Positions 3,792 to 61,778 of a stretch of 64,000 nt of DNA are shown here, piece by piece; position 1 is the stretch's first letter, and each line of letters starts with the position of its first letter. The notes under the pieces were generated by a model. That model was not told the origin of the DNA, made no database searches, and saw only the letters and a list, made by a program, of their open reading frames with translations. Source of the stretch: Thraustochytrium sp. TN22 (lineage: Eukaryota > Sar > Bigyra > Thraustochytrida > Thraustochytriidae); contig JABLUY010000151.1 in NCBI GenBank assembly GCA_013306675.1, positions 1-64,000 of the forward strand, in the 5' to 3' direction. A program made the translations under genes and the position numbers.

Positions 3792-3795
3792 ATAT

Positions 3796-6132: not shown

Positions 6133-6136
6133 ATAT

Positions 6137-8673: not shown

Positions 8674-8706
<33 letters not shown>

Positions 8707-8841
8707 AGCATGCTGCAGGGCATGCTGCTGGGCATGCTGCTGCTGCAGCGCGTGCTGCTGCGCCGGCAGGCTGTTGCCGCCGCTGTTGACCCCGTTGTCG
8801 CCCTCCTCGGTGAACATGAGCGTGGCGGTCGCCGTTGCCAT
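6841..8841 (-). CDS. Large Gln/His- and Ala-rich protein, putative member of lineage-specific family (666 aa)
   Basis: Function unknown. I start at the ATG at 8841, which follows a GC-rich leader; the frame upstream is open but low complexity. Residues about 20-75 are a Gln/His tract encoded by CTG-rich repeats. Residues about 110-300 are the ordered part, with hydrophobic strands such as SPVRILFTMQ and FRVVVRVRDG. A helical segment follows with RILSKFNHQF and then KRYGDQRKQAIEHFL, which resembles the Y-x-D-x-R-...-F element of the proteins at 42980-50185. Basic patches (KRSHD; SDRRRQHELEDQ) could serve nuclear import. Long Ala/Gly/Pro stretches fill the C-terminal half. Family membership is by-eye inference; a regulatory role is a guess. 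Confidence 0.75.
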
Positions 8842-11396: not shown

Positions 11397-11454
<58 letters not shown>

Positions 11455-40347: not shown

Positions 40348-40413
40348 TGCAGTGCAGTGCAGTGCAGTGCAGTGCAGTGCAGTGCAGTGCAGTGCCAGTG
40401 CCAGTGCAGTGCC
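40348..40413. repeat. GTGCA pentanucleotide array
   Basis: About thirteen near-perfect five-base units, located some 210 bases upstream of the prolyl hydroxylase start codon. Confidence 0.9.
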
Positions 40414-40619
40414 GCGCTCGCTCAAGGTCACCGTCAGCGCGACCGCGACCGCCGCGACGACCTACCCGCCGCCAGCTCGCTCCCTCCAACCGCAAGCGCG
40501 AGGCCGCCGCAAACCCGAGCGGCGGCGGCGCGGCGGGCGGCAGTGCAGAGCGGCTCGGCGCGCGGCGCGGCGGCGGCTCGGGCGGCGGCTCGGTCGGCGG
40601 CCCGGCCCCCGCGCGCAGG

Positions 40620-42718: not shown

Positions 42719-42979
42719 CCCGGACACGGCAAGTCTTCGTGGTGGTGGAATCAAATGTCCTTGCAAGCAAGCACCTGTTCTGTGTTCCGATCCTTTTCCT
42801 TTGGTGACCTCGCTCGCTGGCGATTTGGGTGTGCGTGAGCCCTGTTTTCCATCTTTTTTCTCGTTTTATACATTTTGCCATTGTCTTGCCGTTCATGTTG
42901 GCGGCCTTTTGCGGCGCAAGGAGGAGCCTCAGTCAGATCAGAGACAATGCAGGATAGCCGCGCTTGCTCGCAGTGCTTG

Positions 42980-43975
42980 TCACAGTCCGAAGTCGTCGTC
43001 CACTTCCATGACGGCATTCTTGAGGTCAAACTCGTCAAGACTGGCAGCGCCGGCCTGGAGAAAGCCCTCGTCGTTCGGAGTCTTGGTCGCATGGCTCACA
43101 TCGGGGTCGTGCAGCAGCGAAGAAGCTTGGGACGTGGCAGCACCGGCCTCGAGGGTATTGGCTGCATCGTTGGCCGCGAAGCTCTCCATCCCAGCCACTT
43201 CCAGGTTCTCGTCCACAAAAGCCACACCCGGGGTGATCACTGCGGCGAGCGCAGTCGCAAAGACCTGGTCAGCCGACGTCACGACGGGGAAGATCTGCAT
43301 GAACTGCTGCTTCAGGCTGCTGGCGTGGTTCCCAAAGTCGATTTCTTCAGCTGGGACACTCTCGTCGAGTGCGCCGCGCATGAAAAAGTACTGCAATTGG
43401 TGGGCAGTGCGGCGGTCGTGGTAGTCGCAGGCGTACCTCTGCATGTCGCGACGCATCCACAGCTTGTCAGGACCCTCCAGATGCGCCGGGAAGCGCACCT
43501 TGCTCTTCCATTGGAGCTCCCTGCAGAAAATCTGCACGGGCACATCCAGGCCGAAGTAGTTGGCCTCCATCGTGAAGCAAATCTTGTCGCCCCGGAGCAC
43601 GTTCTTCTCGCTGCGATGCAGCCCGCCACCGTGCATGAATGCACGGACGCTGCCGCCCACGTACTTCAGGCCGAGCGCGAGGACAGCCACGCCGCCCTTT
43701 TTCTGTGGGAAGCTCCTGTACCCGTCCAACTGGAAGGGGTCCAGCCACAGCGTCTGGGTATCGACGGCAACCCACCCGTTGTCGCCGAGCAAGTGGATGC
43801 TGGCTGTGAGACCCTGCACGAACATGGCTTGGGGAGGCAGCTGGAACTGCGTGACCACGCTGCCGGTGTTGAGGCCGCCCAGCGTGCTTGATTGGTTGGG
43901 CTCCACGCGGAAGATGGTGGGGGAGAGCGGGATGGCGAGCGCGACCTGCGCGACCTGGGCCGTGGGGACGGCCAT
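42980..43975 (-). CDS. Lineage-specific GGLN/HGGG-family protein (331 aa)
   Basis: Function unknown. Start at the ATG at 43975; a GTG five codons upstream is in frame. The core has LGGLNTGSVV (about residues 32-41), a strand LTASIHLL, then GVAVLALGLKYV and MHGGGLHRSEK (114-123), WKSKVRF, and a helix YACDYHDRRTAHQLQYFFMR. These occur in the same order in the proteins at 46159, 49133 and 56708. Strands before the HGGG motif suggest a beta sandwich. The C-terminal 90 residues are unstructured and end in an acidic stretch with Phe (LDEFDLKNAVMEVDDDFGL), like a transcription activation domain. Inference: a nuclear regulator. First of three tandem, same-strand relatives about 2 kb apart. Confidence 0.8.
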   Translation of the reverse strand: MAVPTAQVAQVALAIPLSPTIFRVEPNQSSTLGGLNTGSVVTQFQLPPQAMFVQGLTASIHLLGDNGWVAVDTQTLWLDPFQLDGYRSFPQKKGGVAVLALGLKYVGGSVRAFMHGGGLHRSEKNVLRGDKICFTMEANYFGLDVPVQIFCRELQWKSKVRFPAHLEGPDKLWMRRDMQRYACDYHDRRTAHQLQYFFMRGALDESVPAEEIDFGNHASSLKQQFMQIFPVVTSADQVFATALAAVITPGVAFVDENLEVAGMESFAANDAANTLEAGAATSQASSLLHDPDVSHATKTPNDEGFLQAGAASLDEFDLKNAVMEVDDDFGL

Positions 43976-46158
43976 GGTGGTGACGAGCACGAAGCGCGAG
44001 GTTAGCTAGGAGAAGGCAAAGGCAGGTGACGAGCGCGCGTGAGCGCGGCGGCCAGCGCACGCCGCACGTGCGCAGGCAGCCGGGTCCCGGAACGGGGCAG
44101 GCGAGAGCGTCAGCGCGCCGCTGCAAGCGCGGCGGCTAGCGCGCGGCGTCCCGCGCGCGGCGGCCAGCGCGCGCGGTACAGGCACAGGACAGGCAGCAGG
44201 GCGGGGGAGGTCGCGCTTCCGTGGTGGCTTAGGAATCTTCGTCTCGTTGATTGCTGGTCTGCTCGAGCGCTCCCCTGCCCGAGCGCGGCCTTGTCAAACC
44301 TTTCACTTTGGGGGCGAGGTTCCCCTATTCGTAAGCGCAGCGACGACTGCGAAACAACCGGCCAGCGGCGGGACGGTGATGCCCACGCGACGCTGCTCGG
44401 CTTCCTCTGTGCTGTGCTCTGTTGCCTTGCCGTGCCTTGCCGGGCTTTGCCGCACGGCGCGGCGCGGCGCGGCGCCGCCTCGCTCTCGCGCTTTCCAATG
44501 CAAGAACTCTCCGCGTTGCGATCGCGGGGCCGCGCGCGCCTTTGGGCTGCGTGAGCCTGCGTCTAGCCAGACTCGGGCCAGCATGCCGCCCTCCGCCTCC
44601 ATCCTCCATGCCGCTGAGTTCGTCCATGCCCCCTGCGCGGCTCGCGAGCCTCCTCGCGAGCCGCCTCGCCTCGCACCTGCGCCTGCCGTGCACCGGCTGC
44701 GCCGGCCTGCGCCGCGCGCTCGAGCTCTGGCGTCGCGCGGCGCCGCCGTCGCAGGGCTCCCGGACACTGGGCCATGCCGCATGCGGCGCCACGGCGTGCG
44801 GCACGCGGGAGAGGAAGGCGCGGCGTCTCGAGGCTGCGACGCAGCAACCTTGCGCCGTTTGAGCTTCCGCGTGGCAAGCCCGGATCTCGCTAGACTCGAG
44901 CTCCAGCAGCCGCCCGGCCGCCGCGAGCGCCAGCCGGGCTACTCACCGGCAGCAGCGTCGCCGAGCTGTGGCCTGAGTGGGGCGGCGAAGATCCGGCCAG
45001 GCAGGCTCTGCAGGGAGAGGACAGAAGTTATCCGCCACCTCGCTGTCATCATCAATGCGGTGCAGTGGCAGTCGCAGTCCGAGGCTCCGTCCAGCTGGAC
45101 TCCAGCTAGCTTGGGCTCTTCGAAGTTCGGGGCGGGTTCGTGGAATCCCAGGCGCAGGAGCGGGTTGCGCAGCGCGACAGACACAGGTAGTAGCGAGCAG
45201 CCAAGCTTGTGCTCATGGAAACAGGTCGGGTGGAAGGGCCGGGCTCGCTCACCCCGTCTGGCGCCCCAATGCATCTTGACAGAGGAGCGAAACGCGCTCA
45301 CGGCTCTCCCAAACGAGGGCCCCGAGCAAACGCCACTTGCAGGCAGCTCTGCAAGTGGTACCAGAAAGATACCAAGGATTGGTCCGGCACTGGCAGGCGA
45401 GCGCTTCGGATCCGTCACCCGTGTGCGTCTCGTACGAGCGTCCGTGAGCGGGCTGTGAAAAGCGTGCGTCGGTGATGGAGGGGAAAACAACGGAGCCGGC
45501 TCTGGTGCGGCGGTGGATCTCTCGGCATGCGTGAGAGATGGGGTCGGCGATGCACTGTTCGTGTGAGCTACTGCCCTTTTGCGTGGGGTAGGAAACGAGG
45601 GCGGGAACCAGTGGCTGGCACTTGGTTGAGGCTCGCACTCTTCGAGGGCAGCCTGGTTGAGCATTCACACGCGCATCAGGCAGGACACTGTGCTGCACTC
45701 TTGGCCGTGCGCTCGGGGCTGTGGTTGATGATCCTCAAGTGGATCAGCATCGCTGGTCCACAATTCTCAATCTCATTGGCGCCGCGTGACAAATACGTTG
45801 GATGGATGCGTGCGCAACGAGTAGGCTCAAGTGGCGGCGGCAGCGGCAGCCGTCCAGCCGTCAAGCAAGCCCAGGTTGTTCTCGCATCAGCAAACTACCT
45901 TGCACAGAATAAATTCGTTCATTCGAGCGCAAGGTCGTACTCGAAGTTGAGCCCCGGCTTGAGCTGAGCACCTTGATGAATCTTGCCGCACCGTCGCCGG
46001 CCACGATGGTTGCAACTTTCAGGCCGGCGTCGCAGGCGACATGGACGCCAGGACGAAGTTGCCTCGTGAAGGAGCCAGGATCAACATCATCACCATCCAG
46101 ACAGCGTTACACCACATGCACCTCCTCAACCTTAGAGAAAACCATGACAGCCCAGTCA
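43976..46158. other. Intergenic between tandem family members, 2.2 kb
   Basis: Upstream of one family member and downstream of the next, both on the minus strand. GC-rich, with CTTGC/GCGGC pentamers at 44400-44475. Several open frames overlap on both strands between 44240 and 45460 without consistent coding bias. No gene supported. Confidence 0.5.
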
Positions 46159-47106
46159 TCAGTGGCGCTCCTCGTCACAGTCGTCCTTGCTCGTGAGGTT
46201 CTCCTTTGCACAGGCGGCGTCGTCGGCGCAGGGCTCGAGAGGCGGGCTGACCGGCAGGGGTACCGTCCCGAAGTCGGTATCTGCAGCAGGAACGGCGTTG
46301 GTCGTGCCAGCGCCCAGGTCCTCGTTCGCTGCGAGCACAGAATCGGGAAGAGGCAGAGGCTGTCCGATCGGAGCCACCGGAATCATCACAGCAACCATGG
46401 CCTCCTGAAGGCTCGTCGCGCCCTGGTAGCGCTCCATAAAGTGATTGTGCTCGGTGCATGTCGTGTCCTCGAAGTTGATCCCGGCAGCTGGCACGGCCTC
46501 GTCCAGCGCGCCGTACATCATAAAGTGTCGCAACTGATACTCGGTGCGAAGGTCATGGTAGCGGCGGGCATAATTCAGCATGTTGACCCGAGTCTCACGT
46601 GGTATGTGCGTCGAGAAGCGCGCCTTGGACTTCCAGAGGAATGTTGTGGAGAAGATCGGCAGGGGCTGGCCCGTGCCAAAGTCGGCATCAAGCGAGAAGC
46701 GCAGCTTGTCACCGTTGACGATCGTTCTCTCGCTTCGGTGCATGCCACCTCCGTGCATGACAACGCGGGCCCTGCGGCCTTTATCCACGTACGCCAGCGC
46801 GAGCGCGAGGACGCAGGCTCCGCCCTTTTTGCTGAAGGGCTCATTGCACGTCAAAAATAAGGGCACATCCCACTCCTTCTCGTCGGCGGTGACCCATTTG
46901 TCGTCTCTAGTGTGCACGTGTATGCGTGCCGTCAGTTTCTCGACGCAGAAAACACCGCTCGGCAGCTCGAACTCCGCCACCACGCTGCCGGTGTTGAGGC
47001 CACCAAACGGCCCCGCCGACTGGTGCAGCTCAACGCGGTAGATGACCGAGGAGAGCGCGCGAAAGGTATGTACGAGCGACGAGACACCCGATGCGCCGGT
47101 GGACAT
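46159..47106 (-). CDS. Lineage-specific GGLN/HGGG-family protein (315 aa)
   Basis: Function unknown. The ATG at 47106 is the natural start. The core is colinear with its neighbours: FGGLNTGSVVAEFELP (about residues 34-49), KLTARIHV, CVLALALAYV, VMHGGGMHRSER (116-127), DKLRFSLDADFG, FLWKSKARF, and the helix ARRYHDLRTEYQLRHFMM. It is closest by eye to the protein at 49133, sharing the RYHDLRTEYQL helix almost exactly. The C-terminal 90 residues are Ala/Asp/Pro-rich and end DDCDEERH; here the acidic tail is weaker than in its relatives. A relic with the same FSLDADF segment lies at 48440-48560. Confidence 0.8.
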   Translation of the reverse strand: MSTGASGVSSLVHTFRALSSVIYRVELHQSAGPFGGLNTGSVVAEFELPSGVFCVEKLTARIHVHTRDDKWVTADEKEWDVPLFLTCNEPFSKKGGACVLALALAYVDKGRRARVVMHGGGMHRSERTIVNGDKLRFSLDADFGTGQPLPIFSTTFLWKSKARFSTHIPRETRVNMLNYARRYHDLRTEYQLRHFMMYGALDEAVPAAGINFEDTTCTEHNHFMERYQGATSLQEAMVAVMIPVAPIGQPLPLPDSVLAANEDLGAGTTNAVPAADTDFGTVPLPVSPPLEPCADDAACAKENLTSKDDCDEERH

Positions 47107-49132
47107 GATCTGATAGCACCGGGCAGCAAAGACCAGCTTGTTGGCTTGATTGCTGGCAGGCAGACAGGCAGGCAGGCCGCGAGCGCGCGATGTCAGAGAG
47201 GTTGCTTGGCTGGCATGAGTACAGGCAGCGCTTGATGGCGTTTTGCTTTGCTACGCCAGCCTGCACGCTCCCCCGAGGCAACGCCGGCTCGCTCGCCAGC
47301 TTGTGCAGCAGCGTGTGGCCTCCGCCCTAATCCGTTCTGCTCGCTCAGCTGCCCATCGCGGACCAGGCCAGCGCTGGGAACCGGCGACATGAAGCTGCGC
47401 TGCTGCTCCACTGGCTCGTGGCCGAGGCGTTCCCGCGGGCCGTCTCGAAGGCGGCGCGCGCTCTGCCCGCGCGTCTTGCCTGACTTGGTGTCATGGCGTG
47501 TGACGCATGCCCTTGCCCCGTCCGGCGTGCTCATGGCTTTACGAGCCACACGAGCCACGCTGCGACTGATTCGTGGCGGGGCGGGGTTGACGGCGCGCAG
47601 CTGACGCCCGCGCGCCCGCGCCGCCAGCCCGCCAGCCAGCGCCCTCGCGCCCGCGGGCCGTTCTGGACTGCGATGATGATCGTGGGCAAGATTTCGTTCT
47701 CCAAGCCACACCGCTGGCACTGCATGCATTGTGTGGGGGCCCTCAGGCTGGCGGAGAATCGCAGGGAGCCTCAGGCTGGCCGTGGCTGCGGCCGAGAGAA
47801 GGCAGAACAGGAAGGAGATCGGTGCTCTGCCTGCCTGCGCGCCAGCGAGGGCGGCTACGTCGCCACAACACGCTCGTCGCGGAACTTGCAACTTCACGAA
47901 CCATGATGCTGGTCATGGTCATGGCCAGGCCAACGTGGAGATCGCGGGCTGAGAACCACCGAGAACCCCAGAGAATATCGCGGAGAACGGGTTAGCGCGG
48001 TGCGCCCATCATGTCGTCTCAGAGGCTCGTCGTCGCGCTTCGCAGGGAGACTGAGTCTCTCTTCACGCGGGTTTCGAGCGTGAACTGGCCCAGCAGAGCT
48101 GGCTTCGGCTGTGCGCTGCGGCGAAAGCATCGATCGCATCATGGGCCTCGTGGAGGGCCTGACGAGCTCTGACGACGCCATTCACGCGGTTGTAGTGGTC
48201 TGCGGCCGTGTGGGTTCTGCAAGAGCGCAGTTTGAGTTCGATGCCGCCCGCCAAGCGCTTGCACTGTGGACCGGCCAGCAGCCGCGTCCTCAGGACGAGC
48301 AATACCTGTCGTGAAGATCCGGTCCAGCGTGCCGTGCCTGGGCCTACTTTTTCAAAGACACGTGAACGAGAATGCACGGTGGAGAACTCGTGCCAGCGAC
48401 GCGCAGAGATCGGGAGGTGTTACGGCGTAGTCGGAGGTCCCAGGGCCCGTCAAGTGGCACAGGAAGCGCAATTAAGACCTCCATGCTGAAGATCAGCACC
48501 GACTGACTGGGTAGGGTGGAAGTCCGCATCCAAGGAGAAGCGAAGGCATTTTGGGCTTGGCTTCATTGCATTATGTGCCGCTCTGCAGTGTACGTCGCAC
48601 GCACCCAGTCTGCTCGCGCGCCTAGCCTGCACAAGAGGCGACCGCGTCAAGGCTCGAATCAGCTTGACATGTCGCGTCACGGTCACTTGCGAAGCAGTCA
48701 CCGCAGCCACCGCCGCCGCGCTCGACGCGGACCCATCATTCACGCTGGGGCCCTGTCAGCTGCGCGAGCTGGTGGGCAAAGAGCGATCGCGCCGGGCAGG
48801 TTTGCAAAACTGTGGCCGTCTTGTCTGCCAAGCACTGATCGGGAGCACAACGGCGGCGCACGTCAGAGGTGCCCTCAGGCTGAGGCCTGCGACGCGGATG
48901 GCCGCGCCTTTGATGCAGCCCACCCGCACCATCCGCTTTGGGACTTCACTCCCTGCATACGACGTGGCTTGAGAGTGAGGCACCTCCAGCTAGTCTCAAT
49001 CGACCGCGTGAAACTGAAGAAAACATGTTTACAGGAAGGAGTGCTTGTGCGTACTTGCGTGCTGCGGGGCATTGATCATTGCAGAGTATCTCGATCACCA
49101 GCATGTCGCGGCGTGCTGGGTTGGCTCAAAGC
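47107..49132. other. Intergenic containing a family relic
   Basis: Between two family members. GCCTGC and GGCAG repeats occur near 47160-47180, and a stretch of balanced composition follows to 48400. The relic at 48440-48560 is the only coding trace I can support. Confidence 0.5.
48440..48560 (-). pseudogene. Relic of a GGLN/HGGG-family gene
   Basis: The minus strand reads KCLRFSLDADFHPTQS, matching DKLRFSLDADFG of the intact protein at 46159, and then continues in a second frame with VLIFSMEVL, matching the PIFSTTFLW strand that follows there. The frame changes between the two pieces and stops follow. The GGLN and HGGG parts and the helix are not recognisable. It lies between the two intact family members at 46159 and 49133, as expected of a dead tandem duplicate. 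Confidence 0.6.
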
Positions 49133-50185
49133 CTATTGGTCATTCGAAAGCAACTCTGCGATCTCCTTCAGCGCCTCGATGTCGTCGTTGTCGATTTCCA
49201 TTGGATGAGTTGGATTGAAGACGTCGGTCGGCTCAAACGGTTCGAGGTTCATGATATTGAAGTCCTCGGGGATGCTCTGGCTGGCGTCGAAGAGGGGCTC
49301 GAGCACGTTAAGGCCAATGTCTGGGCCGTCCGGCGTGTTCGTGTGGGGGGCAACGTCCATTTCATCGTCTGCAACCTCCGCGCAGGGGTTGATAATCGCG
49401 GCGAGGACCACGCTTAGAGCGCGCGTCGGGTTCTGCACGCCAGGAAAGCACGCCAGAAACTCATCGTGCAGAACGCAAGCCGTGTCCTGAATATTGATGT
49501 CGTCGCCGGGTGGGACTTTCTCGTCCAGGAAGCCATGGGCCATGAAGTACTGCAGCTGGTACTCGGTGCGAAGGTCGTGGTAGCGGCGGGCATAGACCCG
49601 CATCTTCTTCCGGGTCTCCTTGAGCTCCCCGCCTCCCAGATGCCTTTTGAAGCGCAGCTTGGACTTCCACGGGAAGTTCTCGGTGAAGATCGGCACGAAG
49701 CCCCCGCCGAAGGATGCCTCCAGCGAGAAGTACAGCCTGTCGCTGCTGTACGAGGTTGACTTCTTGAGATGCATGCCGCCACCGTGCATGGCTACCCGTG
49801 CGGTGTTGTCGTCCACGTACTTGACGATCATTCCCAAGACCGTTGCCCCAATGCGCTTGGGAAAGTCCTGCGAGCACGCCTGGCCCGGTCCGGGTGCCCA
49901 CCTTCTCTCATCAGCGATCGTCGGCGTGGGCACCGTGCCGTCCTGCCAGGGCCTCTCCGCCGTCACGACCGGCGTTTCCTTTGGGAAGCTGTAGATGCGC
50001 GCGATCAGCTCCTTGATACGCTGAGGCCGTCCGTCCGGGCCGCGCGGCAACGCCACCTGGGCCGCGACCGATGTGCTGTTCAAGCCGCCCAAGACGTGCA
50101 CCTGGTTCGTCTCGTCGCTGTATAAGTGCCGCGAGAGCGGGACGACGTGCGCATGGAGTACTGGAGCCACTTCGGCAGCGCTCAT
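49133..50185 (-). CDS. Lineage-specific GGLN/HGGG-family protein with strong acidic tail (350 aa)
   Basis: Function unknown. ATG at 50185. The core has LGGLNSTSVAAQVALP (about residues 32-47), KELIARIYS, an insertion of about 25 residues absent from its neighbours (about 78-105), VLGMIVKYV, MHGGGMHLKKS (133-143; the usual HRS is HLKK), FSLEASFG, WKSKLRF, and the helix ARRYHDLRTEYQLQYFMA. The last 80 residues are strikingly acidic with spaced Phe/Leu/Met (PEDFNIMNLEPFEPTDVF; IDNDDIEALKEIAELL), the composition of acidic activation domains. A transcriptional role is inference. Promoter DNA would lie above 50185. Confidence 0.82.
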   Translation of the reverse strand: MSAAEVAPVLHAHVVPLSRHLYSDETNQVHVLGGLNSTSVAAQVALPRGPDGRPQRIKELIARIYSFPKETPVVTAERPWQDGTVPTPTIADERRWAPGPGQACSQDFPKRIGATVLGMIVKYVDDNTARVAMHGGGMHLKKSTSYSSDRLYFSLEASFGGGFVPIFTENFPWKSKLRFKRHLGGGELKETRKKMRVYARRYHDLRTEYQLQYFMAHGFLDEKVPPGDDINIQDTACVLHDEFLACFPGVQNPTRALSVVLAAIINPCAEVADDEMDVAPHTNTPDGPDIGLNVLEPLFDASQSIPEDFNIMNLEPFEPTDVFNPTHPMEIDNDDIEALKEIAELLSNDQ

Positions 50186-52358
50186 GATGGCGTGCGGCAG
50201 CGAGACGAGCTACTCGGGCAGCTAGGCTTAGCGAGGCTTGTTTTCCGTGCGAGACAAGGCTTGGTCACCGCGCGAGACGAAGGCTTAGCGAGGCTTGTTT
50301 CCCGTGTGAGACGAAGGCTTGCTCGCCGCGCGAGACGAGGATTGCTTCACGAGGCTTTGCTTCACGAGGCAGACTCGCGCGCCAGGTGGCTCGCGGTGGG
50401 AGTCGCGAGCGTGCCTGTCGCCCCGCCACGGGCCGGGGTCGCGCGCCTCCAGCTCCGCCTCAGGCCGGGGTCGCGCGCCTCGCTCGACTGGACGTGCGCT
50501 TGGTCGCGGCTGCGGAGAGTTCGGGTTCTGCGGTCTGGCCTTGCCGCGCCCACGGAATGCGCGCGGTGAAGAAGAGCGGCGGTCTTTCATCGCTCGCTCG
50601 ATCAGGATCGCTCGCCCTCGTCGTCCCGGCCAGCTGGACGGAGGGATTCCTGCGCAGGCGGGCGTCTCACTGGCGACTTGCTGTTCTCGTCGGTAGCTCG
50701 TACTACCTCGAAGCGCTAGCCGCCACGCCTCGCGCCAGCGCGGCGGCAGGCACGGGCCAGCAGGCCGGCAGGCGTAGCGCCCGCCCCTGCGCGGGCGTCA
50801 GGCTCGGCGCGGCGCGGCGAGGCGCTCGCCTCCTCCTGTCCTGCGCAGCCTGCCCGCGCTCGCTCCTCATCCGCGGAAATCGCATCCCGCGCGCCGCCGC
50901 GCCGCCGCCGCCGCCGCCGCAGAGGAGACTCTGCGCGCGCGTCCTGTCCTGCGCGCGCGCGCGCCAACACTGCCGCCCGCGGCCGACTCCCGCGCGCGCG
51001 CTGGGCCGGGCCGCCGCGGCCGCAGCCGGCAGCCCGGCCAGGTTTGGTTGGACTCACAACAACTGTTGGCTGCGACTCGACTCGGCTCCAACGGCAGGAA
51101 GAGCGCCGCGCCGCGACCAAGAGGGAAAAATCCGCACGTGCGCGGGCCATGCATCAGGCATGAACTGTGGCCCGGCCCGTGAGGGCCAGAGTCGAGAGCC
51201 CCGCGGCTGGGAGCCGAGCCGCCGAGCCCGCGCGGCGGCGAAGGGCTTGCGCTAGGAGGGACACCGAGGGAGGCGTGGGTTGGAAGACTGGGCCGCGGGT
51301 CGCCAGCCTGCGCGACGGCAGGACGTCACGCACGGCCGCACCGCCGAGGGCTTGCAAAATCGCGCCTCGTGGAGCTGGCATGAGGTCCGGCGGGCGGCCT
51401 GGGGCAAGCTCAGGCTGGCTGGGCCGAAGCAGGCTGGATCGAGCGGTCGGAGTCACGCGTGATCGACGCGGCGACCTGAGCTGCGCTCGTCAACCCGGCT
51501 GCGCGGTCCCATCAGCCTGTTTAGCTGAGGCTTTGCGATCCATGCCACAGCGCCGTCATGAACGAAGCTCGCATCGCCCGAGCCGCGCGAGCGAGCGCAC
51601 CGGCGTGGGTCCGGATGGGTCCGGATGGGTCCGGATGGGTCCGGCGGCCACGGAGCCGATCAGTCGCGGCTGCGCTGGGCCAGCAAAACCCCAGCTTGAC
51701 TCATGACAGTGAAGGACTAACGTTAGGCCTAGGACGGCGCGTTGGCGCTCGAATGGACCAAACTTACAGCGCGTGGAGAGTTGGCCGCTGGCCAGTGGGC
51801 CGCCCTGGCGTGTCCTGGCCGGCAGTAACGAGCGGCACTGGCAGCAGCCAGCTTCAGCGCGCTCCAGCTGTAGCTGGTAGCCGGCTAGAGCTAGCTAGCG
51901 ATCGACGAAGCAAGACAAGCCCAACAAGCCGCAGATGGGCCGGCCCTGGCGGCCTGGCCCAGCAAACACTCTGCCGTGGCCGCACGATCGATCCAAGCGC
52001 GCTGGAACTTGCTGGTGGCAGGCAGCAGGTTGATTGACAGCGAGCGGGCGTCGCGCGAGCGAGCGGGCGGGCGGGCGGGCGGGCGGGCGGGCGGGCGGGC
52101 GGGCGAGCGGGCGGGCGAGCGGGCGGGCGAGACGCAAGCGAGCAGGCGTTGGAACGACGGACCTACCGCAGAATGCTGTGCGCCAGAGTGGTGCCAGGAG
52201 TCATGATGTGGCCAGTCGCCACCTCCGTTGTCTCTCGACATTTCTGCGCGTTTTGTCTTTCACGCCGTCGCGCGCGCCTCGTCCGAAAGCGCGCAGCGTG
52301 AGGGCGACAAGACCGGGCCTGACTCCCCTATCCACCCCGAGAAGTTCGCGAGAACACC
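50186..52358. other. Intergenic, 2.2 kb, GC-rich with tandem repeats
   Basis: Two imperfect copies of GAGGCTTGTTT..GTGAGACAAGGCTT-like DNA lie at about 50225-50310. GCC- and CG-rich DNA covers 50900-51010. A ten-base unit (GGGTCCGGAT) is repeated four times at 51605-51644, and a (GCGG)n tract fills 52058-52132. No gene supported; the long plus-strand frame at 50386-51255 has artefactual composition. Confidence 0.5.
52058..52132. repeat. GCGG tetranucleotide array
   Basis: About 75 bases of GCGG units with a few GCGA variants. The G-rich strand could form quadruplex-type structures. Confidence 0.9.
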
Positions 52359-53008
52359 ATGGCTCTCTCTACCTCGCTCTACCTCAGAAGGTGGTGGGGG
52401 TACCGGGTGAGTGCCCGTTGTAGAACCGGCGCGGAAAGGCTTCAACGCGCCTCGACAGCGTTGCGTCAAGTTGCCCAATCGGCACTTGGGCCGAAAAAGC
52501 AGGGTAACCCGCGACGGACAGGCCGCTCACCACTTGCAGCTCGCCCGCCTCGAGGCTCGCGATGGCTCGTCACCAATACCACTTCGTGGGCCGGCCGCGA
52601 GGCGCTCCCGCCGCGCTCCCGCCGCCGGATTTCGCCGCTCAGGCGCAAACAATCCGCCAAGCGCTTGGCCGCCAAGCAGCAGGCTAGCCCGGCCCGGCCC
52701 GGCCCGGCCCGGCCCGACCCGGCGCGGCGCGACGCGGCGCGGCGCGGCGCGGCGCGCCTCGGAGCAGCCACCACGCGCCCGTCGCCGCGCGCTCTCGGTA
52801 CCCTGGTACCCCGGCCTTGCCCACCTTCTCGCTGCCCGTGGAGGACGGCGCTGCGGCGCTGCCCGTACCGGTGGAGGACAGGACCACTCTGCTGCGGCAT
52901 CGGGTAGTCCTGCCCCTGCGGTGACGGCGACTACTACGACACGCACACGGTGTGTCCGCTTCCACCCGTTCGGTCCTGCCGAGCAGTGTCATCCAAGTCT
53001 TCAGCATC
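52359..53008 (+). other. Possible 5' exons of a spliced gene
   Basis: Three pieces look coding and lie in order before the frame at 53009. The first (52359) reads MALSTSLYLRRWWGYR up to a perfect donor G|GTGAGT near 52407. The second begins at an ATG at 52562 (MARHQYHFVGRPRGAP) and runs 41 codons. The third, around 52800-52900, reads LPTFSLPVEDGAAALPVPVE. A pyrimidine-rich acceptor (GTCTTCAG) lies just before 53009. A GC pentamer array (52687-52756) interrupts the stretch. I cannot tell which pieces belong together. Confidence 0.35.
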
Positions 53009-53323
53009 ATGCCCCGTACGAAAGACTCGGACTGGAAGAACTCGGACGCGGACTCTGGTCGCGCCTCGAGCCCGGACACGTGGATTGTCGCCGTCGCATC
53101 GGGAAGGGCGGCGGCCATGCCCGCGGCGCAGCTGGCTCTGAATCAGGGCTCGCTTAGCGAAGCGCTGTCCTTGGCGACAGCGCCCGACACCAACATCACG
53201 ACGGCCTCGTCCGACGAGCTGGCGATCCTTTTGCAGGTGCAGCTCCACGCCGACATCGTCTCCGCCGCCGAGCTACGCTCAATCCTCCTGCGCCACCTTC
53301 TGCCCTTTCTTTCCAAGCACTGA
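53009..53323 (+). CDS. Small unknown protein or last exon (104 aa)
   Basis: Not recognised. From the ATG at 53009 the frame is short but has strong GC3 bias and a plausible protein: MPRTKDSDWKNSD at the start, an Ala/Leu-rich middle, then a helical C-terminus with SSDELAILLQVQLHADIVSA and LRSILLRHLLPFL. It may be complete, or the last exon of a gene beginning upstream, because an acceptor-like site (TCTTCAG) immediately precedes the ATG. Confidence 0.5.
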   Translation: MPRTKDSDWKNSDADSGRASSPDTWIVAVASGRAAAMPAAQLALNQGSLSEALSLATAPDTNITTASSDELAILLQVQLHADIVSAAELRSILLRHLLPFLSKH

Positions 53324-55477
53324 CGAGAACGGGCGTGTCGAGCGTAGTGCTACCTGTCGCCGACGGGACGTCTGAAACACGAAGTTTGCTATGACTCACT
53401 GTCGGAGCGTCACGGTCCAGCACTGCCAGCTGCACTGGGAATGCCGAAGCCGCGTTCCACTGTTCCGTATGTAGGTGTTCCAAAGAGCAGCTACTACCCA
53501 GGCTCGGGATACTGAACTTGCGGAGTTAGCCCGTATTGTATCGTGTAAATTGATGAGTTTCGATGGGCGTGTAGGATGGGTGGCTAGGTGCGCCCGCGAC
53601 AGCCTGGCGCGCGTGACGGCGGCGTCGGCGGCAAAGCCAGCGATAGTCGGGAGAGGAGAATCGAAGCTGCGCGCGGGCGAGAGGTAGCGTGCGCGTGCGG
53701 GTGCGCGTGCGCGTGCGGGCAGGCCGGGACGCAGCGGTGCGGCTGCGTGTACGTGCACAGCGGCAGCGACAGCGGCGGCAGCAGCAGTAGCGATAGCGGA
53801 AGCGGCAGCGGCAGCGACAGCGGCCAAGGCCAAGGCAACGCCAACCGCAGAGGCAGCACCCGTGGCGGCATCACCCCTTGCCTGGGTCGAGGCGCGCTGA
53901 CCGTGAGGCGTTCCGGAGTTTAGCTTGTGGCTTCGTGGACTTCGTCCCAGCGTCGGCGTCGGCAACCAAGCGCACGACGAAACCATTCACGCCCTTGGAG
54001 CTCTGGCGCGCGACCCGAAGCAGAAATTGCCTGCGCGCGCACGAGCGCGCGGAGGCCCGTGGCTATTTCCCGTTGCCCAAGTCACGGTACGCAGCGGTAG
54101 CAACAGCGACAGCAGCATTGGTATCCTCGGCGCTTTGGTGCGCGCGCAACTGAGTTGCAAGTGGCGCAAGCGTGTTGCATGCGCGGTTGTTTGCGTCTGC
54201 GAGTCCTCCATCCTATGGAATGCGCAGCGAGCTGTGGTGCAATTACCACTGCCCCAACAACTGCTACTGCTAGAGCCGACGTCAGCACCAACTTGAGCGC
54301 CAACTTTTACGCGAATCACAGCAGTGGGCCACGGCTTGCATCGAGAATGCTGGCTCATGACAGCGACGGCTTTGATCTCGCCGTCGGGGCAGACATGGTG
54401 CCCTGTAATCTCGAGCTGACCGTGAACAATGTCCAAGAGCTGGACTTCTGGTCATCCTACGACGTGCAGAGATGCGAGATTGCAACGACCCCGCACACGG
54501 TCGCGCGGGATCCCGCACCAAGTGGCCAGGTAGAAGTTTTGGACGCCGCAGGGTAGGGCGCGCAAAGTGCGGCAGAGATCGTGGAAACCGCAGGGCGCGC
54601 TCGGCTGTGCTCCTGCGGCGCCCAGGTCGCAGAAACCCTCCCTCAGCGCGCAAGACGACAAGCATACTCGCCGTGCGTGTAGAGCGCCGCAGCCGCGTGG
54701 TGCCCCAACAATAGAAATACTTTTACCAAGGCGTCTTCACCAGCCGACACCGCTTGCCCAGTGGCTTGCCGCCGCCCACGGACGCGTGGCTGTTGCGACC
54801 GTGCGGCTTTCCGCCTCAAGCCGCTCTCGCGCGCCGGCACGGAGAGCGGCTCGAGCCAGCGCAAGAGGCTGCACTGCTCGTCTCCGACTCGCACCGCGGC
54901 CCCGTCGCACGACTCCGACTCGGCAGCACGCTGGCTGCTTCGCACTGCACTGGCAGTGCCTCCGACACACTTGCCAGCCTGACGAGCAAGCCAGCCGCCT
55001 GAGCTGGCTGGCAGTCTTGACAGCTCGCGGTGGCAGCGGTGCCTCAAAGTGGGCGACGGTCCCAGGGCCGGACGCAACTGCGCAGACACAGTGCAGTGCC
55101 AGTGCAACTGGAACTTGAACAAACATGAAAGAGAGTCAAGGTCGACTGAGTCGAGTCATCCTTGATTTCAAGTTGTGCCAGTCTGAGTCTCACTCAGCGA
55201 GCCGGAGGCTGACTCCGGTTGCGGACCGGGGCTCAAGTGCTCATCAGAGTCAGAGTCAGCCTGGGCCGAGGCTCGCTGCTGCAAGGGGGCCACAGCGCCA
55301 CTGTAAGCACGCTCTTGTAGTTGGCCACAGCTGGCCTATCTCGCGGTTCGCTGGTTCCCGCCGCGCCTCTCCAACTTTTTGTCCTGCAAACCGGCCCGGC
55401 CGTGGCCGGCCAGGCCGCTGGACAAGGCGAGGCGTCGTCGTCATCCTCTCCTTGTAGCTACTGTACGCAGACACTAC
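53324..55477. other. Intergenic, no confident gene
   Basis: Includes GCGTGC repeats at 53690-53720 and an AGCGGC/AGCGAC repeat at 53758-53830. At 54150-54560 both strands stay open and both look weakly protein-like (plus: GFDLAVGADMVPCNLELTV; minus: QLEITGHHVCPDGEIKAV), so a gene may exist there, but I cannot choose a strand. Confidence 0.45.
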
Positions 55478-55963
55478 ATGGATCTTTGGCCATTTCGAGC
55501 CCCAGCTTCCGGGCCGCCGGGCCAACTGCAGCCCGCCTGCCAGCGCGCCACACGCCAGCGCCCCACGCGCCCGCCCGGCGCGCAGACTGCGCAGGCGCAC
55601 GCAGCTGTCTCGAAGACAGTCCCGGAGCCTGGGCCTGCCAGTGCTGTGACGAGCTTGGCCGGGCTTGACAGTGACGCCGCGCTCGCGCGAGCTGCTGCCG
55701 CCGAGCGCCGCGAGCCTGGTCTGCCAGATTTCCAGGCCGCGAGGTTCGCCAGGACGTTGAGCAGGAACTTCAAGTCGAACCGGACGCTGGCGGCGCCGGT
55801 GGCTTCCTTCTTCAAGTTCCTCGGCTTCCTGCCCAGCTGGCTCCGGCGGGGCTCGGACGTCCGCCGGATCTCGTTTGACTTCGCTAACTTACAGTTAGTT
55901 TTAAAAACTCAGACTCCTCAAGCCGAAGAGTCGAAGACCGAGCCCAGGCCTAGTAGGCCCTAG
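55478..55963 (+). CDS. Possible small protein, unknown (161 aa)
   Basis: The ATG at 55478 opens a frame with a Pro/Gln/Ala-rich first half and a more ordered second half (FQAARFARTLSRNFKSNRTL; ASFFKFLGFLPSWLRRGSDV), including an amphipathic or membrane-associated stretch. The coding composition is weaker than in the certain genes and the last 20 codons are A-rich. It might be a real small gene or a chance frame. Confidence 0.35.
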   Translation: MDLWPFRAPASGPPGQLQPACQRATRQRPTRPPGAQTAQAHAAVSKTVPEPGPASAVTSLAGLDSDAALARAAAAERREPGLPDFQAARFARTLSRNFKSNRTLAAPVASFFKFLGFLPSWLRRGSDVRRISFDFANLQLVLKTQTPQAEESKTEPRPSRP

Positions 55964-56707
55964 TTGCAGAGTGGCACGCGCCGCGAGAGGGATCTTTTTC
56001 TTTTATAATTCGCTCCGAGTCGCGCCCGTGGTTGCGGCCGTCCGTGGCCGGAGCGCGCTTGCGGTTCGCGCGGCAGAGAAAGCTCGAGGACTGATTGCGC
56101 GCTCGAGCTTCCAGCCTGGCCTTACGCAATCGATCTACGGAATGGGCCTCGCGTCGAGGTTGACGCGAGCTGGCTGGGCCAGTTCGTCGCCATCCCGCAG
56201 CGCGCCCGCAGCGTCCCCCTGAGCGCGGACGAGGGCTCCCGCAGCGCAGGGGGCGCGCCAGGCCAGGACCCCAGTGGGGTCTGGGGCCAAGTGGGCTTTG
56301 GCGCGCGCAAGTGGCCGCTCCGCGCTGGCGCCAGTGGCCGCTCGCCAGCGGCAAGTGGGGGAGCGCTCGCGGGAGAGCGGAACCCAATTTTGCTGTGGGC
56401 GCGGCGCCCTCGGGAGCCCGACTTCAGGAGCTTTGCGACGGCAAGGAGCACGTCGGAGTGCAGCAAACCCGAATCGATAGAGACTCAGGCCTCAGACGGT
56501 GCTCGAGTCGAGCAAGACATCCATCGCAACGAACCAGCGGCAGCAACCGGTCCTGGTCCCGGTCTCGGTCGGTCGGCGTCGTGTGTGCGCCGGGCATCGT
56601 GCAGCCGCGTGTTCGGATCTTGACTGTGAGTGAGAGAGAAGCCCTACTAGGTCCTAGCCTGAGCTACTACTAGCGTGCGTGCCGGCGTCTCCTACGAATC
56701 GAAGATC
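55964..56707. other. Upstream region of the next family gene
   Basis: About 740 bases with repeated GGCGCGC..AAGTGG(C/G) segments near 56285-56360. CCTAGTAGGCCCTAG near 55950 and CTACTAGGTCCTAG near 56645 look alike. No gene seen. Confidence 0.5.
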
Positions 56708-57880
56708 ATGGCGCTCGCGATGCCGGTCACCGAGGACGAGACCTTCAAGACGCGGCCGCCGATCCGCGCGATGGCGGCGGCGCGGCGCAGTTACGGGGTG
56801 CGCTACCAGCGCACGCTGGCGCCGGCGCAGTACCGCGAAGAGAACCACCAGGCGACGCGTGGCGGCCTGGGCGGGCTCAACGCGAACGGACTGGTGTGCG
56901 AGGCGATCGTGCCCGAGGATGCAAGCGGCATGCCGCTGCGCATCCACAAGCTGACGGCTCGGCTGAGCGCGCGCCAGGACGACGGCGAGGTGCGCTTCCT
57001 GCATGAAGTGTCGCTCAACGCGTACACCAAGATGCGGGAGTACCCCAAGCACAATCGCCACGCGGTCATCATGGCCTTCGCCTGGAGGTACGTGGACAGC
57101 TACCGCCGTCGCGTGCGTATCGTTCTGCACGAGGGCGGTCTGCACCGCTCGGGCGTGAATGAGTTCACGGGCCACACGCTGGTCATCGAGGTCTTCGCGG
57201 ATCACAACGATGGCCGCGGGCCCATCCCGGTCTGCACGCAGGACATCCGCTGGGAGTCCAAGAAGAACTTCAGCAGGGCGTTCAAGCCGCTGGCCAAGAG
57301 CTGGCAGAAGCTCGCGCAGCGCTGCGCTGACCAGCGTGCTCTGCAACAGTACGCCTACTTCATGAACCACGGCACCATGGACCCGGCCAACAGCGTGCCA
57401 GACTTCAGGTACATCCAGGACCACTACGAGGACCTCCTCGCCGCCATCCCCCCCGAGGGCCAGGACTCAGCCAATACCTTTGTTAGCGTGCTCGCTGCGG
57501 TGGCTGGTGGCGCGGCCCAAGCTGACACCGACGAGGTGGCGGCCGTCGACGACACGGACGCACCCACCGACCCTGACATCGTCGTCGGCGGCAAGCGCCC
57601 CTTGCCCAAAAACTGTATCGACCTCGGGCCTCGGCGCACGCCCAAGCCTGCCTCGAACCCGACCGTCTCGCGCTTTGGTACTACCATGCCGCATCGCTGG
57701 TTTGACGACCTGTTCGGCGACCTCGAAATGATGGACGATCCTGCCGACTGGGACTTGTCGCCCGGCGAACTGCCCCAGACGAGTGGCCCCGATAGCTACT
57801 TCAACATCGGTGGACTGACTGCCATCAGTGACGCTGAGCGCGACAGCTGTGGCACTGACAGCGCGTCCGACATTTTTTAA
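56708..57880 (+). CDS. Lineage-specific GGLN/HGGG-family protein, VP16-like tail (390 aa)
   Basis: Function unknown. Start at the ATG at 56708; a GTG eleven codons upstream is in frame. This is the only plus-strand member and is more diverged: LGGLNANGLVCEAIVP (about residues 54-69), HKLTARLSA, VIMAFAWRYVD, LHEGGLHRSG (140-149, HEGG for HGGG), DIRWESKKNF, then the helix with QYAYFMNHG. The N-terminus is longer and basic (RAMAAARRSYGVRYQR). A KRPLPK segment near residue 297 could be a nuclear signal. The tail is acidic with aromatic residues (HRWFDDLFGDLEMMDDPADW), very like known acidic activation domains. The second transposon copy begins 133 bases downstream of the stop. Confidence 0.8.
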   Translation: MALAMPVTEDETFKTRPPIRAMAAARRSYGVRYQRTLAPAQYREENHQATRGGLGGLNANGLVCEAIVPEDASGMPLRIHKLTARLSARQDDGEVRFLHEVSLNAYTKMREYPKHNRHAVIMAFAWRYVDSYRRRVRIVLHEGGLHRSGVNEFTGHTLVIEVFADHNDGRGPIPVCTQDIRWESKKNFSRAFKPLAKSWQKLAQRCADQRALQQYAYFMNHGTMDPANSVPDFRYIQDHYEDLLAAIPPEGQDSANTFVSVLAAVAGGAAQADTDEVAAVDDTDAPTDPDIVVGGKRPLPKNCIDLGPRRTPKPASNPTVSRFGTTMPHRWFDDLFGDLEMMDDPADWDLSPGELPQTSGPDSYFNIGGLTAISDAERDSCGTDSASDIF

Positions 57881-58012
57881 GCTCGCGGGCGCGGCCTTCT
57901 TCTCCGGGCGCCACGTCCCATCCTGTAAATACACCATGTAAACAACGGGCTTGACCGTAGAAGAATGAATAGCGACCATACAACAAAACCAACAAATCTT
58001 TATTTCCTTTAT

Positions 58013-60349
58013 CCCAATCACACCTCTATGCTTACTCGTATCCGCCTACCACGCGGGGGTCCCTCGGTGACGCCCGGCACAGGGGGCACTAAAGCGTATT
58101 AAGAGGGTACTTTACTCCCGATTTGCTCCAAAAAAGTGGCCTAGAGTCTGGCGAAGTTAGTTCCGCATTCGATCAAAAACGCAGCGATGGGGCCGAGCTT
58201 GAAGAGGCCCACTCGAAGCGACCCAAGGCTCCTGCCCCCTATTCATTTTGGCCGAAGGCGTGGTGGTTAGGATGAGATGAGCTCGGCAGTTCGCCCAGAG
58301 CGGCTTTGGGGGGAGCTCGCGCGCGACTTCGTCGCGGAGCGCGCTGGAGCCGCAGGCGCTGCGGCGCGCGGCTGCAGGCGGCCCTGGCGGGTGCCTTGTG
58401 CCTGCTCTCAGCTCGCACGCCCCTGCCGCAGCGCTTGGACGTGGAGTCGGGCCCGCACTGCGACATCATGGCATCGGCGAGGCCTAACCACCGCGTGGAG
58501 GACGACAGCGACAGCGACAGCGACAGCGAGTTCGTGCCCCTGGACAAGCGGGACACAGGGGACGAAGACGAAGAAGGAGAGGAGCTTGGCGACGAGGATG
58601 CTCGTGCTGAGGCCGCTGCGCAGCAAGACTTCGAAGACATACTTGCGTTGGTCGACGAACCGACGCGTGGTGCGAGTGCATGTTCGAGGTCGGCCTCATT
58701 CAGCACAAGACCGTTCCGGGGCTCGCAGTCTCGCCGGATGGAGTCGCTCGCGTCCGGCTTCCAGGCGCGGAGTGCGACGCATCGTCAGTACTATGCAGCG
58801 TCGAGATCAAGACGCGCGTCGCGCCTGGAGGCGCGGTAGACGCACGTATCGTGAGCACCCAGATGAACACGTGGGGGACGAGACTTGGTGGAAGGCCATA
58901 CCTGCCGAGCACCGCGCGCAAGTCTTGCACCAAGCTGTGGTCCTCCAAATCGATCACGTGCTCTACGTTGCTGCCAGCACGAGTTCGTGTTTGTACGCCT
59001 GCCTCGTTGAAGTGCCTCCGGACGCCCGGCTCGCCATGGAGCGCGCTCTGAAACCGTGGGCGGACAAGCTCACGACATGGGCGCACCAGAGCATCGACAG
59101 CGGGTGCGCCGCCCAAGCCACCTGCCATCTTCGGCGAGGAGGAGGGGGCGGTGCTGAGCTCGCACTTCCGGCTGTGGCGCGCCATGCGCAAGCTTGTCGC
59201 TCTGAAGGGGCCCATGCGGCCCGTGCATGTCATCAAGTGCTTACCGCAGGAGCTATACAACGTCGCAAAGGGCGGCGTCGACGGAAGCACACAGTACGTG
59301 GAGCAGATCACCAACACGCAGTGCATGAATCTGAGCTGCGACCAGAACATCGCGTTGCGCACGTACAAGCAGCTCGTTGTCAACGCCATCGTGGTCTACC
59401 GCTACTTACAGGCTGCGAGGAAGAGCAACCTCGAAGACAGCGACGGGCTAAAGGCCCTCCGCGACAAGGTGAACCGCTCTGAAGCGCTCAGCACTGTCTC
59501 GTTCCGCCTCACTGTCGACATGGTCCGTCACGTCTACAGGAGCAGGCAGCTCGATACGGCGCAGGTGGAGTTCAACATGCAGCCAAGCATGCCCAAGCCC
59601 ACTGGGCTCACCAGGGAAGCGGCGAGGGACCTCGTGACCGCCGGTAAGCGCAAGCGAACCCCCGAGTTGCAGAAGTTCTTCAACCACGGCCATGCCCGCG
59701 ACATCCGCCTCGATGCCGCGCTGCACCATGACTCAGAGGCAGCGGGAAAGGCATCCTTCAACGCCAACAACAAGAGGATTCCCGCCAAGCGGCTCTGCGT
59801 CATCTGCGGCAAGCAAACGCACCGTCGTTGCACCATCTGCGGTGTGCCTCTGCACGTGTTCATGAGAAAGAATGAACGCACAACCTGCTTTTCCAAGTGG
59901 CACACGCGCGTGCGCGTCGAGCCTCACGAAGGCTTCAAGAAGCGCAAGACAAACGTCAACGGAACACCTTCGCCCATTTGCCTCGATCATGTCGATTCGA
60001 GCAGCGCCAGTGCCTCGTCCGGTACCCCTACAGCGCAGAGCAGGAACGACCACGTAGCCCAAGCCAGCTACACCGACACCCCATCAAGCCATAGTTCAAG
60101 ATCCTCTCGCAGCAGCCTCAGCACGAGTCCATCGTGCCCTTGATGCAGCCCAAGTTGGCCTCAGCATCCGCACAGGCCAGTCGGAAGTGACCAACACTTT
60201 ACGCTTCCATACAAACCCAGTAGTTGAAAGTTCCAAAAATGATTAGAATCATGATAGCAACAGGTCAGTCGAGCGCAAGCAGGAGAGCCGATTTACTAGG
60301 GATAATATGGCTATCCTGATTAAACTCCGTCTAGGGCGATGGGATTGGG
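58013..60349 (+). mobile_element. PiggyBac-like DNA transposon, right copy (2337 bp)
   Basis: Same element as 3796-6132 in opposite orientation. It begins CCCAATCACACC and ends GATTGGG, with a TTAT duplication at 58009-58012 and 60350-60353. The length equals the left copy to the base. Of the seven differences I find, six fall within about 59640-59830. Identical ends, intact duplications and high identity mean both insertions are recent or the family is kept homogeneous. Confidence 0.9.
58306..60143 (+). pseudogene. Transposon coding region in several frames, right copy
   Basis: Content and order are as in the left copy: acidic Asp-Ser N-terminus (about 58468-58670), YqaJ-like SPDG...VEIK block (58680-58830) and its helical continuation (58840-59110), GGVD segment (about 59270) and C-terminal zinc-binding domain (about 59795-59905). 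Frame changes occur at the same places as in the left copy. The C-terminal differences include Thr to Lys and Gln to His changes near the end of the helical segment, none in the cysteine ligands. Confidence 0.6.
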
Positions 60350-60575
60350 TTATTGCCCATGGCTCAAGGTGTGCGCGGCCGGCGGGCTTGCTTGCAGTCG
60401 TGGTGTCGATGGCCCTGCCTGCCTGGCTGTGCTTGAAAAGAAAGAAAAAAAACAATAGACGCCTCCTCCTGATAGTGGGGGTCTTTGGCTCCTGCCTCGG
60501 CGAGTCGGTCGTTCAGGCCGTTTTGTTCGTCCCGTCCAGGGACGCCGAGTCGCCGAATCACTGTCATGAATCGGG

Positions 60576-61778
60576 CTAGGGGCTTCGCAGAAAGAAGTCG
60601 AGCAGCTCGCCATCCTTGCTGCTGAAGTGGACGGCGACGTTGTCGGCCAGCGGCTCCAAGGGGGGGGACGTGGCGGAGTTGCTCGACTCGAGAGTCATAT
60701 AAGAAAGGCGCATATCGGAGGGGGGTGGTGCGTCCTCGCAGTTGGCCACCTCAGGGTTGGCGGGCAGAGTCACCGTGCCCTGGTTCGTAATGAGCCCGTT
60801 CACGTCGGTGCGACCTGCCGCGGTGCCCTGGCCAGAAGCGCTCACGAGATGATGTTCGCCATCCATGCCACCCGTGCCATTCTGCGCGAACTCGTTGAGA
60901 AAACGGTTGCACAGGTCTTCGAGGTGATCGTTGGGGTTGGGTACGTTCTCGCAAATGTCCTTCTTCTTGTCCAACCACGCTGCCTTGATGCAATCGTACT
61001 TGCGAAGGTCGCTCGTCGACTCCTTGTACGCGGGGCCTTGGGCAAGAAACTTCTCCATCTCCTTTGAAGCGTGGCTGTCGTGAAGCTTGCGCAGTTGCTC
61101 CTGGTAATCTTTGGCGGACTTGCCTTCGATCTTGCCCGCGAACCTGCGGTCGTTGTGCTTGCCATGCCAGTCTACAACATCCTCTGCGGTGACGCTGGGA
61201 AATCCCATGACGGCGACCTGAAGGCAGACCCTGAGCTTCTTGGCGATTATGTCCACCGGGTGGGACCGGTCCTCGGCGGCAGCCTCGCCGACCTCACTGT
61301 CCGGGCACTTCCGCTTGCGCTTCCCGGGACAGGCCGTCCTGGGCTTGCGCGTGTTGCCCTGCCGGATAATCATCCACAGCTGATTCTGGACCAGACGGCA
61401 CAGGATCGCCAGCGTCTGCACGTGAGGTCCGAGCGAACCGCGCGCCGGCTCCGCAAAGGTTTTGAACATGATGTCGCTCTCGAAGCGCAGGTCGTCCAGG
61501 CCCAACTCAGCGATATGCAGGTTGTCCTCGGAGTCGCCGGCCCGCAGCATCACGGTCACCGAGTCAAGCACGCGGCCCGCCGGCACGTCCACGACGGCGA
61601 AGTGCGAGTTCACGTTGGTCCCGCTCGTCTTGCGCGCCTCGCACCGCTGGTTCACCTCTTGCTGGCACTGATACTCGCTCGTCTTGCCCACGAACTTCAC
61701 CTTGACCGCCTGGTCCGCCGCGCCGCGCGTCTCACGGTCGACCGGCGTCTCGTCGCGCAGCGCCAGGGTCTCGGCCAT
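60576..61778 (-). CDS. Diverged member of the GGLN/HGGG family with basic insertion (400 aa)
   Basis: Function unknown. ATG at 61778; the frame continues upstream only from a GTG. Motif identity to the other members is low but the order is kept: VVDVPAGRVLDSVTVML for the LP-x-G-x3-x-L-T strand pair, LAILCRLV and LWMIIRQGN where the others have VLALALAYV and RVVMHGGG, KKLRVCLQVAVMGF for the DKLRFSLDADF strand, then a helix YQEQLRKLHDSHASKEMEKF for RYHDLRTEYQLRHF. Between the QGN site and the KLR strand is an insertion of about 35 residues containing GKRKRKCPDSE, a likely nuclear signal. The C-terminus is mixed and only mildly acidic. The gene starts a few hundred bases beyond the transposon, 226 bases from its right duplication to the stop codon. 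Confidence 0.75.
   Translation of the reverse strand: MAETLALRDETPVDRETRGAADQAVKVKFVGKTSEYQCQQEVNQRCEARKTSGTNVNSHFAVVDVPAGRVLDSVTVMLRAGDSEDNLHIAELGLDDLRFESDIMFKTFAEPARGSLGPHVQTLAILCRLVQNQLWMIIRQGNTRKPRTACPGKRKRKCPDSEVGEAAAEDRSHPVDIIAKKLRVCLQVAVMGFPSVTAEDVVDWHGKHNDRRFAGKIEGKSAKDYQEQLRKLHDSHASKEMEKFLAQGPAYKESTSDLRKYDCIKAAWLDKKKDICENVPNPNDHLEDLCNRFLNEFAQNGTGGMDGEHHLVSASGQGTAAGRTDVNGLITNQGTVTLPANPEVANCEDAPPPSDMRLSYMTLESSNSATSPPLEPLADNVAVHFSSKDGELLDFFLRSP

Follow-up and report, generated by a model that had tools for sequence, protein, structure and literature searches.

A predicted immunoglobulin-like protein family at a single locus of Thraustochytrium sp. TN22: possible transcription factors of restricted lineage

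We analyzed a 64,000-nucleotide stretch of DNA from the thraustochytrid Thraustochytrium sp. TN22 (the window; positions 1 to 64,000 of contig JABLUY010000151.1, which is 93,424 bases long with 65.7% G+C). A prior inspection of the letters alone (hereafter, the sequence-only reading) had proposed that the window harbors an expanded, lineage-specific family of five genes, here called A to E, that share GGLN, HGGGxHRS, W(K/E)SK and YxDxR motifs. All five exist as open frames at or beside the positions where they had been placed (Table 1). A, B and C are tandem copies on one strand, and E lies on that strand as well, but D is on the opposite one, so that the proposed same-strand arrangement holds only in part. 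The G+C content at third codon positions (GC3) was 0.76–0.85 in A–E, equal to or slightly lower than that of three conserved neighbors (0.85–0.92), and no signal peptide was evident by eye in any of the five products.

Table 1. Genes and conserved motifs, in window positions
Feature	Position	Strand	Description	Basis
gene A	42980..43990	-	336 amino acids, core family member	blastp to B, C, D; open frame, GC3 0.82
gene B	46159..47106	-	315 amino acids, core family member	residues 1-250 modelled
gene C	49133..50185	-	350 amino acids, core family member, acidic tail	blastp and alignment
gene D	56675..57880 (first ATG 56708)	+	401 amino acids, diverged member	blastp to B, 2e-14
gene E	60576..61883	-	435 amino acids from GTG; probable distant member, basic insert, tail like that of B	hhalign and shuffles
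gene G	6841..8955	-	704 amino acids from TTG; conserved in Hondaea; SK...F...YxDxR...F...G in common with A-C; possible distant relative	
HGGGLHRS of A	43610..43633	-		alignment
HGGGMHRS of B	46732..46755	-	predicted E-F loop	alignment on predicted strands
HGGGMHLK of C	49763..49786	-		alignment
HEGGLHRS of D	57128..57151	+		alignment
WKSKVRF of A	43490..43510	-		motif scan
WKSKARF of B	46615..46635	-	immediately past last predicted strand	model and motif scan
WKSKLRF of C	49649..49669	-		motif scan
WESKKNF of D	57251..57271	+		motif scan

Judged by their sequences, A–D are true paralogues that share common descent and are related far beyond chance: blastp E values were 7e-55 (A–B), 1e-51 (B–C), 6e-43 (A–C), 2e-14 (B–D), 3e-13 (A–D) and 7e-11 (C–D). 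Pairwise identity was 25–44% across 190–281 residues; among A, B and C it reached 36–44%, for which the earlier description of low overall identity is too strong. By the Nei–Gojobori method, the ratio of nonsynonymous to synonymous divergence (dN/dS) was about 0.45–0.99 in the six pairs, with dS of 0.76–1.18, a quantity that is unreliable at the G+C content of these genes. These ratios suggest rapid divergence of the proteins.

In a four-way alignment, GGLN and W(K/E)SK are kept in all of A–D, whereas HGGG(M/L)H and YxDxR are found in A–C and have HEGGLH and CADQR as their counterparts in D. The invariant positions (numbering of B) comprise GGLN, R114, H118, G120, G121, H123, W158, S160, K161, D185, R187, F195 and G199; no cysteine is invariant across the four. 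The shared motif set thus stands for A, B and C and mostly for D, but it fails for E, in which the positions of GGLN, HGGG, WKSK and YxDxR read SGTN, RQGN, WHGK and LHDSH, and which retains single residues such as E26, Q29, N38, W158, K161, F164 and D185.

E is nevertheless probably a distant member of the family on the evidence of profile comparisons. The full-length A–D profile aligned with E over 188 columns (hhalign E = 9.9e-5, probability 58%), and a profile of the core only gave E = 0.0075; HMMER gave 0.0057–0.0071. Among 647 open reading frames (ORFs), E was the best HMMER match to the A–D profile after A–D themselves (E = 0.0071). Its hhalign score of 26.5 also ranked first after A–D among the 281 ORFs of at least 150 amino acids, followed by an unrelated ORF at 25.6, and none of 200 shuffles of E attained it (best, 25.3). 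Moreover, the C-terminal tail of E resembles that of B (38% over 39 residues and 55% over 22), with tblastn E values of 0.007 when E was the query and 0.37–0.43 when B was, and blastp values of 0.05–0.06. The proposed family of five is accordingly four clear members and a distant, probable fifth, and its expansion amounts to four or five copies at one locus, with none found elsewhere by the protein and motif searches described below.

We searched for relatives and for further copies. No match of A–E came near a curated cut-off in Pfam, where a scan up to E = 10, in which the HMMER filters discard most matches above about 0.1, gave three weak matches, none credible. No NCBIfam match was found at E ≤ 1. 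PDB sequences yielded 13 matches up to E = 10 (E = 0.94–1.2), which we rejected: 12 were to one flavin mononucleotide-binding protein over the HGGG stretch only, and the other was to poxin. Among 5.8 billion proteins, no relative was found at E ≤ 1 in the 7,997 (A–D) and 7,995 (E) candidates scored; this absence is not proof, because the search needs shared 5-residue words. The same database does yield a Hondaea relative of the neighboring gene G, and at the sensitivity of that search A–E were undetected in Hondaea. In viral contigs, 82 stretches fitted the A–D pattern and none was confirmed as a relative. No paper on the family appeared among the literature matches listed.

Within the genome (37.9 Mb, 453 contigs), queries with proteins B, C, D and E placed A–D only on this contig and revealed no other copy. 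Weak matches at four other loci, and at one more with gene H as query, had translations unrelated by eye. Scanning the DNA for W(K/E)SKx(R/N)F turned up nine sites, against six in a backwards control; four were those of A–D, and the frames of the other five were unrelated by eye. Query E recovered none of A–D, and E in turn was missed by queries B, C and D, so that any member this far removed would go unnoticed elsewhere in the genome. In the 29 kb of contig beyond the window, no further member was detected among ORFs of at least 100 amino acids. The family thus looks unnamed, in the libraries searched, and lineage-restricted, as the sequence-only reading had held. The relic copy that it had also reported did not turn up when the window was searched with the proteins by tblastn (E ≤ 5), and the ongoing birth and death that it had drawn from tandem copies, a relic and divergence is not shown.

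Residues 1–250 of B were modelled from the four sequences (predicted local distance difference test, pLDDT, 64; predicted template modelling score 0.65). The model has an all-beta core with most strand blocks at pLDDT 75–88 and strands at residues 39–47, 57–65, 71–80, 97–107, 112–120, 134–142 and 149–157. Residues 39–157 are thus predicted to form a seven-strand immunoglobulin (Ig)-like beta-sandwich, followed by a 29-residue helix (170–198) and the acidic tail. Two well-conserved stretches lie at the end of the fifth main predicted strand and directly past the seventh. Both Foldseek and VIA-align placed Ig-like folds on the model. The best 50 of 91 PDB Foldseek matches at E ≤ 0.001 were all DNA-binding domains of p53, p63 or p73 (E = 1.9e-4 to 6e-4), which are many entries of one family rather than 50 independent matches. 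A model of E was of low confidence and was dropped; an oxygenase and picornavirus capsids headed the fold matches listed for it (probability ≤ 0.10), and an alignment of cut halves meant to improve it gave a worse result and was not used. In that low-confidence model, a GKRKRK run lies inside a predicted loop.

On these grounds we tentatively propose, as a possibility that falls a little short of probable, that A–E are a lineage-specific family of Ig-fold transcription factors. In Ig-fold factors, the E–F loop and the tail past strand G form the end that is turned toward DNA. If the seven predicted strands correspond to A to G and successive ones run in opposite directions, HGGG(M/L)HRS would be the E–F loop and WKSKxRF the tail past strand G; because strand E precedes the former and strand G the latter, both motifs would share one end of the sandwich. 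A–D, and more distantly E, would then be intracellular proteins, seen so far solely in this thraustochytrid, that bind specific DNA sequences in the manner of p53, Rel and Runt domains. The YxDxR helix might pack behind the DNA-facing end, or itself bind DNA or a partner, and the acidic tail might draw in the transcription machinery. Paralogues with different targets or partners could have arisen by tandem duplication and then rapid divergence of the proteins. Ig-fold transcription factors are described as contacting DNA mainly via loops (PMC10340346), and p53 and Rel as permuted Ig-like folds (PMC12051499).

Several observations weigh against this proposal. The template modelling score to the p53 family was at most 0.39 in Foldseek, the top rows of VIA-align were ordinary Ig domains, and no Ig-fold family of the p53, Rel or Runt type was among the three weak Pfam matches up to E = 10. 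No p53 appeared among the 50 VIA-align rows either; this excludes nothing, because VIA-align re-aligns only the top chains of Foldseek. In favor of the proposal, a segment similar to SK...YxDxR is present in the neighboring gene G, conserved in Hondaea, and E has its GKRKRK run. Also in its favor, the tails of A–E contain 3, 4, 2, 9 and 11 lysines and arginines against 18, 19, 27, 29 and 22 aspartates and glutamates, respectively, with cores that are near-neutral or basic. By a simple score, however, their acidic-hydrophobic windows are no stronger than those of several unrelated neighbors, which makes the acidic-tail argument weak.

The main rival to a transcription factor is an adaptor or scaffold that uses its Ig-like domain to bind proteins or ligands instead of DNA; partners would dock on a face made up of HGGG and WKSK, and the acidic tail would be a flexible region for interactions. 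We consider this somewhat unlikely. The ordinary Ig domains at the top of VIA-align fit it, as do the lack of a match to a named DNA-binding family and the viral Foldseek rows, which are mostly unnamed or membrane proteins. However, it does not lead one to expect that the best 50 PDB matches in Foldseek are all DNA-binding domains, or that a conserved, basic motif follows the last strand; G, whose own role is not established, carries a similar segment.

It appears distinctly improbable that the proteins are enzymes of a new all-beta class in which HGGGxHRS performs catalysis or binds a metal. In favor of this, H118, G120, G121 and H123 are invariant in A–D, but the motif is not preserved in E, where it reads RQGN, and one would expect a catalytic motif to be retained longer than the tryptophan and lysine that E keeps; in addition, no enzyme family matched. 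Alpha/beta hydrolases have an HGGG oxyanion motif, and we ruled out such a hydrolase on the all-beta predicted core and the lack of any hydrolase among the Pfam matches up to E = 10. Finally, capture of A–D by the host from a mobile element or virus is very improbable: a high-copy 2,345-bp repeat in inverted orientation flanks A–D on both sides and the family is fast-evolving and lineage-restricted, but no viral-contig relative was found, copies were found at a single locus only, and their GC3 is close to that of the three conserved neighbors.

We also considered whether the transcription factor family proposed here has an older relative in gene G. Residues 160–430 of G are 61% identical to FCC1311_080072 of Hondaea fermentalgiana, another thraustochytrid, and 64% identical to a JGI protein; full-length identity to G is 49% for each. 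The match to Hondaea by itself makes a thraustochytrid the most likely host; a search for an 18S primer site found none. Nearly invariant in the three proteins is F-(K/R)-I-L-S-K-F-N-H-Q-F ... H-D-K-R-Y-x-D-Q-R, and G shares with A–C the order SK...F...YxDxR...F...G. Unlike A–D, G has a longer and different N-terminal half, in which GGLN and HGGG were not seen by eye. In a single-sequence hhalign comparison, this segment of G fell on W-K-S-K ... Y-H-D-L-R of A–D (E = 0.0064), and the profile–profile comparison gave E = 0.056. The score of G against the A–D profile (24.9) was attained by 1 of 200 shuffles and ranked fourth among ORFs other than A–D, behind E and two unrelated ORFs (25.6 and 25.4). 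The strict A–C pattern does not match G. The wider pattern SK-x(1,5)-F-x(10,26)-YxDxR-x(5,9)-F-x(2,4)-G matched 4 of 521 ORFs of the contig, namely A, B, C and G, but none of 200,000 shuffles of G and none of the 104,200 obtained from all ORFs; its true significance is below this count, because the pattern was widened after seeing G. G had no credible Pfam domain and nothing useful among PDB sequences, and of 21 stretches in viral contigs that fitted its pattern none was confirmed.

The link is only suggestive; if it holds, A–E would be a rapidly evolving offshoot of an older superfamily of thraustochytrids to which G also belongs. A broader reading, which we regard as unlikely, is that thraustochytrids, which are stramenopiles, possess a superfamily of Ig-fold transcription factors of their own, with a conserved branch (G and FCC1311_080072) and a fast-evolving tandem branch (A–E); an S-K-x-F motif at the end of a strand and the Y-x-D-x-R helix after it would read DNA in the style of p53 and Rel, either independently of the known factors or as an extremely diverged form of them. 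Three other genes tried as family members were rejected: the score of gene H (10935–13106) was attained by 14 of 200 shuffles and that of gene F (1206–2345) by 160 of 200, and hhalign found nothing for gene I (14632–15078).

Poorly sampled protists often yield orphan families, and the interest of this one therefore rests on the unproven DNA-binding proposal and on the link to G. If A–E do bind DNA, they would be a home-grown family of Ig-fold regulators in a stramenopile group cultivated as a source of omega-3 oils, and would illustrate in a compact setting how new regulators arise by tandem duplication. If they do not, they would still be an orphan family with a predicted fold and, in G, a possible conserved anchor for tracing its origin.

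Other features of the locus were also recorded. The 2,345-bp repeat is present at 3791–6135 (+) and 58010–60354 (-) as two inverted copies that are 99.66% identical and bracket A–D. Genome-wide it gave at least 60 matches (40 of 108 candidates scored), of which at least 51 cover 2,299 bases or more at 99–100% identity, on many contigs; some copies stand head to tail (three on one contig) and some form inverted pairs. It carries TATCCCAATC at both ends, the left one offset by 2 bases, and it encodes an ORF rich in CxxC as well as a piece, nuclease-like by eye, that contains SPDG...VEIK; Pfam gave no credible match. It has the look of a mobile element that is abundant and very young. A tandem duplication (42261–42498 and 42495–42722, 93.7% over 238 columns) lies at and just past the end of a 2-oxoglutarate-Fe(II) oxygenase gene (40296–42281) and is perhaps what the sequence-only reading took for a relic. 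The gene at 1206–2345 (-) and that at 14632–15078 (-; a 148-amino acid open frame) contain domains related to each other (one blastp comparison, 2e-7 over 111 residues) with no credible Pfam family. Beyond the downstream end of the window, an open frame rich in glutamine and serine (contig 81821–83377, +; 7821–9377 of locus L018) has a single AP2-like segment, judged by eye, at its C-terminus.

Two known systems bear comparison with the family. Generic Ig V-set domains, such as those of CTLA-4 and nanobodies, are at most 11% identical to the B model, with middling Z scores that, according to the tool, may reflect just a shared arrangement; such domains belong to cell-surface or secreted proteins, in contrast to A–E with no signal peptide evident by eye. 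The DNA-binding domain of p53, p63 and p73 differs from A–D in that there is no sequence match, in addition to the template modelling score given above. p53 requires zinc ligands, three cysteines and one histidine, a feature that A–D, with no invariant cysteine, do not share, and its helix is shorter than that of A–D. What the p53 family does have in common with the core of A–D is a predicted beta-sandwich, then a conserved basic segment past the last strand, and then a helix.

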